Assembly: GCF_905475395.1 (NCBI RefSeq)
Contig: NC_058338.1
Location: forward strand, 77,573,435 to 77,637,434
Source of the DNA: Chrysoperla carnea
Lineage: Eukaryota > Arthropoda > Insecta > Neuroptera > Chrysopidae
Direction: 5' to 3'
DNA length: 64,000 bases
Within the stretch, counting starts at the first letter, position 1, and each line of letters opens with the position of its first letter. A model generated the notes under the pieces. It did no database searches. It saw only the letters and a list, made by a program, of their open reading frames with translations, and was not told the DNA's origin. Positions 48,855 to 61,590 of the stretch are shown in pieces. The position numbers and the translations under genes were made by a program.

Positions 48855-51800
48855 ATGGATAATTGTTTATCATTATACTGTCGGCTTTGTGCAGAAATAA
48901 AATCAAATACCGATTTAATTGATACAGTTAATCATGAATTAGATTTAAAGCGTAAAATATACGATCTATTAGCAATAGAAATATCGGATGATATTGATTT
49001 ACCAAAAACTATATGCAATGAATGTTCTAATAAAGTAGTTCTGTGCTCAGAATTTAAAGAACAATCACAGAAAGCGCAAACTGCATTGCGTGAAATCTTT
49101 TTACTTAATAAAGTTAAAATCGAATTGAGTGTTATCGATGAAAATATTGATCAGAAAGACGATAGTTATAATGATACATATGATGATTTTTCATCAGTTA
49201 ACGAAAATCCAAGCTCTGGTTGTGCTGACTCAAAAGAAGGTTAAATTATATAGTTCTATAATTTTAATTATTTTATATACTATTTAGAATATTTATAATA
49301 TAGAGAAAATCTGGAGTACTTGTAAATGACACTGGTCAACAAAAATTTTATCACAAAAGCATGAGTTTACTTTTTGAAAGGTTTTTTTGAAAAATTCGTT
49401 TCTTAATATGGAAAAAAACTTATTTTTCCCCTAAATTCGAAGTTATGTTTTACAAGTGAATAATTTTTTCTTACGCCATCAGAAAATACTATTAATTCCC
49501 CTTAAAAGCCATTCAGAATTTTTCCAAAATCTTTTTCTAGGAAATAGAATAAATAGGTAATCAGTAGGTAATACAAGTAGAATTAATTAATTAAATCAAA
49601 ATATTTCTTTTGGTAGTATTACATTGTGTATTTTAACAATCATAAATATTATATAATTTCTCGAAGAGCAAAAATAATATCGGAAGAATTCAAAAAGTAT
49701 TTTAAAAATAGGGGACAAGAAAGGAAGGGTTCCAATTTCTATAAAAGAAAAGAAATAAAATAAGAGAAAATAATTATTTAAACGCATTGATCGAATGTTC
49801 TCGTTACGTTTTTTGTGTGCAACCTATCTTGAGCAACTTTCAATTTTTAGTAATGTAAAATTTAATAATTTTTAGTAATGCGCGTGTCGAGATCATATAT
49901 TATAAAGACGTAAGACTAGAGTGGAAAGGGTAGTGGGAAAAAAAGTGCTTGCCTGTGCGAGTCGGTCGTTGCGTACTTTGGATTGCGCATCAGGCTGTCT
50001 TTTGTTTTCAATTTATTGTCTTTTTGTTTTTATAATTGAAATTTTTAATTATTTTCAATCACTTAGACAGCCTGATGCGTAGTACAAAGTACGCAACGAC
50101 CGATGACTAGACCCCGTTCAGATGGGTGGACCCACAAGTATACAAGATAACTTGTATACTTGTGTGCTGTCGACAAAGCATTTATTGTTTGAAACTGGTA
50201 ATAACTTGATGGACACAGCAAACAGTGTACTTGTTACCTACCGGTGTAGAATGGCTACATAGCTACTCAACATACATCGTACGACTTTGAGTTAACATAT
50301 ACAAAATATACTACTTAGTACATATAAAAGACAAAGCATATATTGTTTGAAACTGACAATTACCTATCGGACACAGCACACTATACAACACTTAAGGAGT
50401 TAACTCCAGTCGTGCGTCGAAGCTGACACTCACAATTTTTTGTTGTTGCAGACATTACACTTGTTAAAAAAGAAATAAAAATCGAAAGTGCCGAAACAAA
50501 CGTAGGTAAAACAAGTAACCGAAAGAAAGGACGAAAAAGGTCTTCTAGAAATAAAAGTGGTGATGGTGTTAAGAAAAAACGTGTGAATCGTGAAGGTAAT
50601 ATCTTTTATATAATAAAAACAATAACTTTAAAATTGTTTTTGTCTTAGAGAATTCGGGGTAGGAAGGATTTTGAATATGTTGTTCAGGTTGAAACAAATA
50701 CTAATAAAAAGGCGTTCAAAATTGTATCTATACCATCTCTTGTATAATAAAAATGTCTTCACAATGTATCCACCAACATAGGCGTGCCGAGGGAAGGGCA
50801 AGGAAAGGTAGCTGCCCCTCCTTGAACCTGGAATTCGCATACATTTAGCTGATTAAGTATGTATTTATGCCTAAATATTCTTACATTTTAGGCCGAAAAT
50901 CCATGAATTTTCCTCTTTGGCAAAAAAAACCTTATTTCATTCACTCTGTACAAAAAGCTGGCTACGTCTCTGCCCACCGATGGGATTGACAAGAGGACAA
51001 AAGACAATTTTTTTTAAACTTTAAACGACAGTCTTTATAAAAATCTCTGCTAATCGAGTAAACAAGATTTTCATACACAAAAATTAAGTAAGATTTCAGG
51101 GGGGGCTAAACAAAAAATGAAAATCCAATTAAAACAATCTTAATAATTATAATCGGTTCAAATATTGAAGTATAAGCAGGGTATTCAAATAATTAACTCT
51201 GTTAGTTGATATTTTTATTTTATATAAAAATTTTGTCTTACAGTATTTAAAAATTATAATTGGCGATGCAATGATTGTGATGAAAACATTAAATCATCAA
51301 AACATTATCGTCAACATTGTGCCGAAGTTCATAGTAAATTGCCCGAATACGTTTGTTCAATATGCTCAAAAGTTTATCATCATGAACGATTTGATGCATT
51401 TTATTTACATATTTATAGACATTTAAAGGAGCATCAAGATCGGTATGTATGCAATCACTACTTTCTTTGTCCATTTTCATTCGAGAATCACTTAACTGCC
51501 AATCTGCCAATCCTAATAAATACCTTTTCACTTTCTTAAGACGACACTTGTAAGATAGTGATCCGAAACATAAAAGTTTGAAAAATTGTTAATTAGTAAA
51601 AGTGTTATACGTAAGTGGTCATTCTGGGACCCTGTATACAAATTTTAAATGCTGAACAAAAATAATTTATAAATTCGATTTTTATGAGAAATTTTTATAT
51701 ATAGACCAGAAGTAAAACATATATGTCCTCAATGTGGAAAATTATTCAAGAGTGCATCTATTTTACGACAACATTCATTGTTACATATACCAAAAGAAAA

Positions 51801-60300: not shown

Positions 60301-61590
60301 AATGTATCCTAGTTTATTTTAATTGAAAACAGTTGAGCTGTCATAACTACAATTTTTGACCAAAGTTGAATTTTCTGGTTATCCACAAACCGCAGCCCGG
60401 ACTATCTTGTTACGGAAATCATGTTACTTCGACGAGTGGGACGTTTATTTCTGACTTGAATTCCACTTCCCATGCAAGCAAGCCTGCTTTTAATTTTCTT
60501 TTCTAACCAAAAAGACGGAGTATCCTGATTAGTCTGATTTCATTACCAAATTAAAAAGCCATTTAATTATGATTCTTAATTTTTTTTTAGGTCAACAAGT
60601 TTTAATTTACTGTGAACAATGTGGTAAAAGTTTTAAAAATAAATCAAATTTAACGTTGCACATAAAAACACAGCATTCAGAAGAAAAACCTTATCATTGT
60701 GAGCAATGTTCGAAACGGTACGTGTATTAAAAACTTTCATCACAGGAAACATTCTTCAGGTTTATAATCAATTCTTTATTTATATTTTTAGATTTAAAAG
60801 TATACCAAATTTACACAAGCACTTAAAGGTACATCTGGGATTGAAGCTTAAGTGTAATATTTGTGGTAAACTATTTTCAAATAAATCATCATTAAAGCGA
60901 CATTCATCCACACATTCTGGTTTATTACCATTCGAGTGTAGTTTTTGTAATAAACGATTTAGATTGCGTCAATTTTTAAAGGTTTGTAATTTCGTGTGAT
61001 TTTAAATTCCTTTGTGGTCAGTAATTAAACAATTTTTCCACAAACGTTAATACTAGATTACTCTAATAAAATGTTTCTTTTTAAAAATTAATGTTAACTT
61101 ATGTCCGATATAGTCTAGTGGCTAGGATACTTGGATTTTACGCAAGATTTCGAGTTCAATTCCCGGTAGCGGAATATTATTTATATTATCTGTTCTGTAT
61201 GAATAGATAAATAGCGAACGAATAATATATTCTGAGAAATGAGTTCAGAAACTGCTTCGAAACTTACGAGATTACCTATTTTAAATATATTTTTCTAAGA
61301 ATATATCTAGAATGATTAATATAACAGCGAAAGTTTAGTAGACACAAGCAAGTAAACTTTCATTTTGACAAAAGGGGTTTTGATTTTTTTATTTGATTAA
61401 TAATCGAGAATAAAATCCAAGTCTTCTGGGTGACGTAATACAGTATTTTAGTCACTACACCATACCGAATACCAAACAATCGTTTTTAAAGAATAGACCT
61501 CGCAATTTAAAACAACTAATTTCTTCAATTTCTTTTTAGAATCATATTCGACAACATACGAGTGAAACTATTATCATGCCAACTATGTAA
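57359..61590 (+). CDS. Z8: ZAD-C2H2 zinc-finger protein, 423 aa, 7 exons
   Basis: Exons: 57359-57743, 57963-58103, 58502-58700, 59513-59691, 60591-60717, 60792-60981, 61540-61590; 1272 nt in frame to TAA. It is a tandem duplicate of Z7: the ZAD exon differs at only a few residues, finger exons have the same lengths, and the same shortened end ([16 protein letters not shown]-stop) is present. Eight fingers remain. Compared with Z7 the residue before the first His differs in fingers 1, 2, 3 and 5 (Q to R, L to K, Q to R, S to L, Z7 to Z8), and finger 3 also has I to N three residues earlier. Fingers 6-8 keep the same contact residues except one. Intron 3 holds a MITE absent from Z7; intron 4 shares a LINE insertion with Z7; intron 6 contains tRNA-like sequences. 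Confidence 0.92.
58898..59305. mobile_element. MITE in Z8 intron 3
   Basis: 'atacggccgttgagtgggtt' at the left faces 'aacccattcagcggccatac' at the right, and inner 'tttccacgaaatgactaatg' faces 'cattggtcgttttcgtgga', so the arms are at least 60 bp and imperfect. The matching Z7 intron (51443-51704) is only 262 bp and lacks it, so it inserted in Z8 after the duplication. The frame at 59194-59424 is internal. Confidence 0.65.
59840..60135 (-). mobile_element. LINE 3' end, family L1s, in Z8 intron 4
   Basis: Same junction and tail position as in Z7 intron 4 ('agatgcgctaaaaataggag', then an aata-rich tail). This copy retains more: on the minus strand [20 protein letters not shown], then [15 protein letters not shown] and QNPLASSA-stop. 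Confidence 0.75.
61104..61173 (+). tRNA. tRNA-Glu-like sequence with anticodon UUU (likely pseudo-tRNA)
   Basis: The 70-nt segment aligns with eukaryotic tRNA-Glu along its length: acceptor TCCGATA with TAGCGGA (six of seven pairs), D-arm/A-box 'agtctagtggctagga', anticodon arm CTTGG-ATTTTAC-GCAAG (four of five pairs), and B-box 'gagttcaattc' with a CCCGG-like T-stem end. The canonical Glu loop CTTTCAC reads ATTTTAC here, so the anticodon is UUU (Lys) in place of UUC. No clear T-run follows. The identity-changing anticodon and missing terminator suggest a decayed copy or a SINE head, but transcription cannot be excluded. It is in intron 6 of Z8. Confidence 0.55.
61414..61474 (-). pseudogene. 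Second, more decayed tRNA-like sequence, inverted
   Basis: On the minus strand the segment starts TTCGGTATGGTGTAGTGACT, an A-box-like match to the tRNA-Glu/Asp D-arm (GGTNTAGTGGNTA), and ends TTGGATTTTATTCTCGA, matching the T-arm pattern. Stem pairing is poor. It lies about 240 bases from the tRNA-like copy at 61104-61173 and points the other way. Confidence 0.35.

Follow-up and report, generated by a model that had tools for sequence, protein, structure and literature searches.

Proteins of the ZAD-ZNF family pair through their ZAD and bind DNA with their C2H2 zinc-finger array. We examined a stretch of 64,000 nucleotides of Chrysoperla carnea DNA (contig NC_058338.1, positions 77,573,435 to 77,637,434; hereafter the window), which holds parts of the exons of eight ZAD-C2H2 genes (Z1-Z8), recognized by their ZAD-like and finger open reading frames, and we compared the neighbouring genes Z7 and Z8. 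According to passages of PMC7655104, expansion of the ZAD-ZNF family took place mainly in insects. The clusters described in parts of PMC7655104 and PMC9810180 for Drosophila (Oddjob-Nicknack and the Cucoid clade) consist of proteins with an N-terminal ZAD, a variable linker and a C-terminal C2H2 array, and the same holds for Z7 and Z8. Also shared with these clusters, as far as those parts describe them, are neighbouring duplicates, common intron positions and a linker in which change is densest. As a difference from them we list the number of fingers, which is eight in Z7 and Z8 and ten in Z1-Z6 of the same cluster. Vertebrate expansions of KRAB and other poly-zinc-finger genes, in the portion of PMC2604467 that treats them, likewise contain tandem paralogues with change at base-specifying helix positions; Emerson and Thomas located positive selection chiefly at positions -1, 3 and 6 and obtained significance for expansions in vertebrates. 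Unlike in the vertebrate expansions, only position 6 was fast in Z7/Z8, the ratio of replacement to silent rates (omega) in codon models was not above 1, and neither a KRAB nor a SCAN domain was found in a Pfam scan of the two proteins.

Z7 and Z8 are intact seven-exon ZAD-C2H2 (ZAD-ZNF) paralogues arranged as tandem duplicates. The likeliest reading of the differences between them, which we hold with a probability of about one half, is relaxed constraint at helix position 6 of the outer fingers, combined with a predicted binding site whose core both proteins share and whose flanks differ.

Differences between the finger arrays and their rates

Between Z7 and Z8, 17 amino-acid differences fell on the 140 non-zinc sites of the fingers (hypergeometric tests excluded the four zinc ligands per finger, which the codon models retained). 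At position 6, the residue directly before the first zinc-binding His, four of the eight fingers differed where 0.97 were expected (hypergeometric P 0.0079). The residues that an initial annotation of the stretch had listed for these fingers (Gln/Arg, Leu/Lys, Gln/Arg and Ser/Leu in fingers 1, 2, 3 and 5) were correct, as were Ile/Asn at position 3 of finger 3 and the identity of Z7 and Z8 at positions -1, 2, 3 and 6 throughout fingers 6-8. The same annotation counted four diverged fingers, all of them altered at position 6. In fact, six of the eight fingers carried amino-acid differences, fingers 4 and 8 among them, and the four are therefore a chosen subset; moreover, a contact difference at position 2 of finger 4 (Gly/Ser) had been missed. 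In finger 8, Leu/Arg was found at helix position 1 and Val/Ile after the first His.

Among the remaining contacts, one difference was observed at position 2, one at position 3 and none at position -1. When the four contact positions were pooled, 6 of 32 sites differed against 3.89 expected, and no enrichment was detected (P 0.16). When differences were shuffled within fingers, P was 0.0067 for position 6; it rose to 0.024 when any one of the four contacts was allowed and to 0.10 when all positions were, and the contact total gave 0.14. With exposed sites as the only reference, P was 0.011 for position 6 and 0.23 for contacts. The enrichment at position 6 is real but modest, and a loosening of constraint would account for it no less than a gain of new DNA targets.

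Pairwise codon models (F3x4) gave an omega of 0.06 for the ZAD (amino acids 1-80; 2 amino-acid differences in 80 codons), 0.54 for the linker between ZAD and fingers (amino acids 81-176; 95 codons, of which 25 differed in amino acid and 3 only silently) and 0.10 for the finger region (amino acid 177 onwards; 28 amino-acid differences in 248 codons). Both genes are under purifying selection, since the finger and ZAD values lie far below 1; the linker value did not differ from 1 (likelihood-ratio test, LRT, 1.78). Amino-acid change was densest in the linker, while the largest number of changes fell into the longer finger region. Kasinathan et al. reported, in passages of PMC7655104, that positive selection in Drosophila ZAD-ZNF genes acts mainly in the linker, with significant exceptions in Table 2 for the C2H2 of CG2712 (P 0.038) and the C2H2-2 of CG7386 (P 0.005). 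The pattern of Z7/Z8, with the densest change in the linker and fingers under purifying selection, agrees with their general statement as given there.

Inside the fingers, omega was 0.94 at position 6, compared with 0.079 over all other finger codons, those of the zinc ligands among them (LRT 12.7). The former value could not be told from 1 (LRT 0.01), and, with other parameters held, values from about 0.3 to 2.7 cost less than 2 units of log-likelihood. All contacts together evolved faster than the remainder (0.26 vs 0.077, LRT 5.9) and significantly below 1 (LRT 8.44). In a four-class model, omega was 0.947 for position 6, 0.112 for the other contacts, 0.104 for exposed non-contact residues and 0.054 for the remainder; position 6 was faster than the exposed non-contact class (LRT 9.58, P 0.002), and positions -1, 2 and 3 were not accelerated relative to it (LRT 0.01, P 0.91).

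The Nei-Gojobori method with local silent divergence (dS) gave 0.26 for contacts, 0.32 for other non-zinc codons and 0.25 for exposed non-contact codons, and 1.54 for position 6 from six changes (five replacement, one silent). Replacement and silent changes at position 6 (5:1) were not distinguishable from those in other finger codons (16:20, Fisher's exact test 0.18), nor were those at contact codons (9:8) from non-contact ones (12:13, Fisher 1.0). The two methods disagree about contacts because silent change was also denser at contact codons. Over Z7 51312-52760, these carried 8 silent changes in 21.7 sites versus 9 in 66 for other non-zinc codons (Fisher 0.029), which may be chance. Faster evolution of contacts than of other finger residues was therefore seen with a shared silent rate but not with local silent rates, the latter being the outcome that the initial annotation had named as refuting its claim. 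Omega significantly above 1 at base-specifying positions, which would mark positive selection, was not found by either method, as neither estimate for position 6 differed from 1, with eight codons only.

Finally, we compared other pairs in the cluster. Ancestral fingers A3 and A10 were left out for Z7/Z8, where they are absent, and the pooled test comprised Z7/Z8, Z4/Z5 and Z1/Z3, so that one pair only was taken from within Z1-Z3. Position 6 differed in 3 of 10 fingers in Z4/Z5 (P 0.40), 4 of 10 in Z1/Z3 (P 0.19) and 6 of 10 in both Z1/Z2 (P 0.09) and Z2/Z3 (P 0.10). Pooled contacts were in excess in Z1/Z3 (15/40, P 0.018), without significant excess in Z1/Z2 (P 0.59), Z2/Z3 (P 0.06) and Z4/Z5 (P 0.26). 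Among older pairs, an excess at contacts was observed in Z5/Z6 (29/40, P 0.008) and in Z6/Z7 and Z6/Z8 (27/32 each, P 0.011), and was not significant in Z1/Z5 (P 0.06). Over the three pooled pairs, position 6 had the most differences of any position (11/28 vs 5.6 expected, P 0.012; P 0.028 against exposed sites), position 2 differed in 10/28 (P 0.033), and contacts showed 32 differences vs 22.3 expected (P 0.008; P 0.044 against exposed sites). Without Z7/Z8, the excess at position 6 was not significant (7 vs 4.6 expected, P 0.15) and that at contacts stayed (26 vs 18.4 expected, P 0.018; P 0.08 against exposed sites); with Z1/Z2 swapped in for Z1/Z3, the same counts were 9 vs 5.8 (P 0.085) and 25 vs 23.1 (P 0.34). 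The codon model for the three pairs gave 0.225 vs 0.058 for position 6 (LRT 15.0) and 0.119 vs 0.052 for contacts (LRT 14.0), both significantly below 1. Taken singly, position 6 had an omega of 0.35 in Z1/Z3 and of 0.05 in Z4/Z5, a rough value as the silent rate is near saturation there; both are significantly below 1. Contact positions of the cluster thus outpace the finger average, position 6 most of all, with a codon-model omega of at most about 1 in the three fitted pairs.

Possible relaxed constraint at position 6 and its alternatives

The direction of change was judged from Z1-Z6 as the only outgroups, the third copy (Table 1) contributing no coding sequence within the window. By simple majority, 6 of the 17 finger differences leaned towards change in Z7 and 3 towards change in Z8, and 8 had no direction. 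Position 6 of finger 2 is derived in Z7, because all six outgroup genes have Lys or Arg there; Z8 has Lys and Z7 has Leu. In finger 3, position 6 is basic (Arg or Lys) throughout Z1-Z3, Z4 and Z5 have Val and Z6 has Ser, and the Gln of Z7 is thus probably derived. Over the eight shared fingers, Lys or Arg occupies position 6 five times in Z8, twice in Z7 and two to four times in the others. Polarised nucleotide changes did not differ significantly between the branches (21 vs 13, P 0.23). A faster Z7 branch, suggested by the finger tree (0.081 vs 0.011 for Z8), was rejected, as the relative-rate counts against each of the six outgroups did not differ (15:10, 17:13, 15:11, 12:11, 13:11 and 13:11).

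The usual linker between C2H2 fingers has seven residues. From finger 1 to finger 8, the linkers of Z7 and Z8 measure 7, 13, 10, 8, 7, 6 and 7 residues, and fingers 5-8 likely form the main DNA-binding run because their linkers are of 7, 6 and 7 residues, vs 13 between fingers 2 and 3 and 10 between fingers 3 and 4. Only one of the four changes at position 6 lies inside this run. Single-finger scores to Pfam zf-C2H2 (cut-off 25.2 bits) in Z7 were 14.2 for finger 1, none for finger 2, and 20.2, 25.4, 35.2, 23.2, 31.4 and 22.1 bits for fingers 3 to 8. In Z8, fingers 3, 4, 5 and 8 reached 29.6, 26.5, 35.9 and 23.7 bits; no zf-C2H2 match was listed for fingers 1 and 2, finger 1 matching zf-C2H2_4 with 17.9 bits (cut-off 27). 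The poorest fit in Z7 was thus that of fingers 1 and 2, and this, together with the lower score of its finger 3 than that of Z8, was counted in favour of relaxation.

Position 6 of fingers 1, 2, 3 and 5 has changed at about the neutral rate after duplication, with the rest of the array held, and the relaxation would concern position 6 of the outer, N-terminal fingers. Backbone (non-base) contacts with DNA let metazoan fingers tolerate changes of base contacts, as argued in part of PMC5588721, and such tolerance would permit near-neutral change at position 6. Through the loss of Lys/Arg in finger 2 and, probably, of Arg in finger 3, Z7 would probably make weaker or less specific contacts there. 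One C2H2 finger reads three bases. As the contacts of fingers 6-8 are unchanged, a shared core site of about 9 bp with different flanks is predicted, so that Z7 and Z8 may have overlapping targets with differing flanking preference rather than wholly new ones.

Several observations weigh against this reading. Under relaxation, more than one position of a finger would be expected to change freely, and fast change at position 6 only would fit selection aimed there. Eight codons also leave an omega above 1 possible at this position, as the Nei-Gojobori estimate illustrates. Scores below the cut-off were obtained also for single fingers elsewhere (fingers 3, 6 and 8 of Z7, finger 8 of Z8, fingers 1 and 2 of Z1). 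Fingers 1 and 2 appear to show no visible breakage: an AlphaFold2 model of exon 3 (Z8 first, eight rows) places helices where expected in both of its fingers (16-27 and 44-59), each preceded by a pair of short strands (mean predicted local distance difference test 83, predicted template modelling score 0.58). Furthermore, two of the four changes at position 6, in fingers 1 and 5, were not firmly polarised, the majority rule having put both on Z8 via one shared residue each.

Another explanation, which we consider somewhat unlikely, is that positive selection shifted DNA specificity after duplication through position 6. The excess of differences at this position, its acceleration over the rest of the finger and over exposed residues, the Nei-Gojobori value and the pooled excess at position 6, position 2 and all contacts speak for it, as does the contact excess in Z1/Z3, Z5/Z6, Z6/Z7 and Z6/Z8. 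However, the codon-model omega was not above 1 in Z7/Z8 and significantly below 1 in the two other pairs, replacement-to-silent ratios were unremarkable by Fisher's test, and no acceleration was seen in Z7/Z8 at two further base-specifying positions, -1 and 3. The parallel with other expanding C2H2 families, drawn by the initial annotation, holds for vertebrate expansions, those of D. melanogaster and A. gambiae being given as "N/S" in Table 2 of Emerson and Thomas (in the part of PMC2604467 that covers them). The annotation's claim of selection for new DNA targets exceeds the data.

Less probable still is chance combined with a pattern picked afterwards, that is, 17 finger differences which happened to hit position 6 four times. 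Some position collected at least four differences in 10% of the within-finger shuffles, and neither the replacement-to-silent tests nor the excess at position 6 in the other two pairs reached significance. On the other side, position 6 is a contact position named beforehand by zinc-finger biology, the shuffle test over the four contacts remained significant, and position 6 ranked first in the three summed pairs. Mutational bias from hypermutable CpG was rejected as very improbable: although a transition creates or destroys a CpG in three of the four differences (CAA/CGA twice and TCG/TTG), the observed/expected CpG ratio gave no sign of decay (1.11 in the window, 1.33 and 1.39 in the two coding sequences) and CpG transitions made up 14 of the 110 coding differences.

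Gene structure, the ZAD exon and neighbouring sequence

Z7 and Z8 lie next to each other, head to tail, and the DNA that carries the cluster has a G+C content of 26-35%. Their exon phases are identical and all junctions are GT-AG (Table 1). The outer limits given by the initial annotation, where Z7 starts and where Z8 ends, agree with the spliced gene models; "recent", its word for the duplicates, can stand as a relative term only, as Nei-Gojobori dS amounts to 0.30 over the fingers and to 0.085 over exon 1. Among cluster genes, Z7 and Z8 alone were subjected to a whole-protein Pfam scan. Both have an N-terminal ZAD (PF07776, zf-AD; cut-off 28 bits, scores in Table 1) and a C-terminal C2H2 array, with eight fingers by pattern and zf-C2H2 above the cut-off for whole proteins. 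The ZAD of Z8 weakly matched the solved chain 7pok_A, named LD15650p (E 0.00046). A search of bacterial and archaeal genome contigs with the Z8 ZAD exon gave 25 pattern matches and one of viral contigs with Z8 exon 3 gave 3, none of which was confirmed as a relative. Relative to the ten-finger set of Z1-Z6, the third and tenth fingers are absent from Z7 and Z8, and finger 2 has two additional residues ahead of the first His.

Table 1. Positions of Z7, Z8 and related features in the window
Feature	Position	Strand	Remark
Z7 ZAD-C2H2 gene	48855-52949	+	open spliced coding sequence, 424 amino acids; Pfam zf-AD 44.9 bits and zf-C2H2
Z7 exons	48855-49239, 50452-50595, 51244-51442, 51705-51883, 52370-52496, 52571-52760, 52899-52949 (including stop)	+	
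Low-divergence tract, Z7 vs Z8, end of 5' untranslated region (UTR) and ZAD	48815-49174	+	10/360 bases differ; 25/114 just before, 22/115 just after
Z7 ZAD-to-finger linker, first part	49095-49239	+	remainder in exon 2 (50452-50595)
Z7 finger 1, position 6	51312-51314	+	CAA (Gln); Z8 58570-58572 CGA (Arg)
Z7 finger 2, position 6	51405-51407	+	TTA (Leu); Z8 58663-58665 AAA (Lys)
Z7 finger 3, position 3	51760-51762	+	ATT (Ile); Asn in Z8
Z7 finger 3, position 6	51769-51771	+	CAA (Gln); Z8 59577-59579 CGA (Arg)
Z7 finger 4, position 2	51850-51852	+	GGA (Gly); Ser (TCG) in Z8; Ser in 4/6 outgroups
Z7 finger 5, position 6	52435-52437	+	TCG (Ser); Z8 60656-60658 TTG (Leu)
Z7 exon 6	52571-52760	+	finger 7 and the larger part of fingers 6 and 8; same contacts at -1, 2, 3, 6 as Z8 exon 6 (60792-60981)
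Sites of absent third and tenth fingers	Z7 51443-51704, 52899-52949; Z8 58701-59512, 61540-61590		last exon stops soon after finger 8
Z8 ZAD-C2H2 gene	57359-61590	+	open spliced coding sequence, 423 amino acids; Pfam zf-AD 44.5 bits and zf-C2H2
Z8 exons	57359-57743, 57963-58103, 58502-58700, 59513-59691, 60591-60717, 60792-60981, 61540-61590 (including stop)	+	
Third copy, 5' flank	63752-64000	+	73% identity to Z7 5' flank; window ends before any start codon

Divergence between Z7 and Z8 was low in a tract over the end of the 5' UTR and the ZAD (Table 1), and silent differences were fewer in exon 1 (6/75) than in the fingers (36/145, Fisher 0.002); in an interval scan, the tract was matched by 8 of 150 permutations. 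Constraint is a possible cause, because the third copy is also alike over the end of the 5' UTR (by eye). Fewer silent differences in the ZAD than in the fingers were observed in Z2/Z3 (P 0.005) and Z1/Z2 (P 0.038), and not in Z1/Z3 (P 1.0) or Z4/Z5 (P 0.17). The ZAD tree paired Z2 with Z3 and the best of three finger topologies paired Z1 with Z3, a disagreement without significance (approximately unbiased test of the two topologies other than the best: ZAD, 0.068 and 0.067; fingers, 0.097 and 0.035). Gene conversion is named in part of PMC9810180 as one possible cause of tree conflicts in ZAD-ZNF clusters. For the ZAD considered here, it is a lead only, each test being marginal when taken alone. 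We can speculate, as a rather improbable extension, that conversion might keep the ZAD exon, and with it the dimerisation module, alike as position 6 of the fingers diverges by drift or adaptation, and that mixed Z7/Z8 dimers might read composite sites, which would amount to modular concerted evolution within one gene. Conversion of exons 5-6 as the cause of the agreement in fingers 6-8 was rejected, given the divergence of intron 5 (5/74) vs the head of intron 4 (37/269, P 0.11) and the silent differences of exon 6 (6/39 vs 26/96, P 0.18); intron 5 was less diverged than the 5' flank (P 0.017), and weak conversion there may still have occurred.

Other features were noted near these genes. Between Z7 and Z8 (54946-56052, minus strand), one open frame encodes eight C2H2 fingers (Pfam, eight stretches) with TGERPY-type linkers and no ZAD match. 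Intron 6 of Z8 holds a sequence like that of a transfer RNA (tRNA) at 61104-61174 on the plus strand (Rfam tRNA 39.1 bits; ARAGORN Lys-TTT), and neither Rfam nor ARAGORN reported a tRNA in intron 6 of Z7. Downstream of Z7 and Z8, a repeat with 93% identity was found (53692-53981 and 61930-62224), with matches in both orientations. An open reading frame that lies between Z2 and Z3 (17091-18011, minus strand) contains an integrase core domain and is likely a retroelement remnant.

Implications for the ZAD-ZNF family

As the data stand, Z7 and Z8 represent one more diverging pair of paralogues in a family known for rapid turnover. A common core motif with differing flanks for Z7 and Z8 is the point that can be tested. 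Were the change at position 6 adaptive, Z7 and Z8 would exemplify a directed shift of specificity among insect-type ZAD-ZNFs, for which published tests across whole expansions in fly and mosquito gave no significant result.

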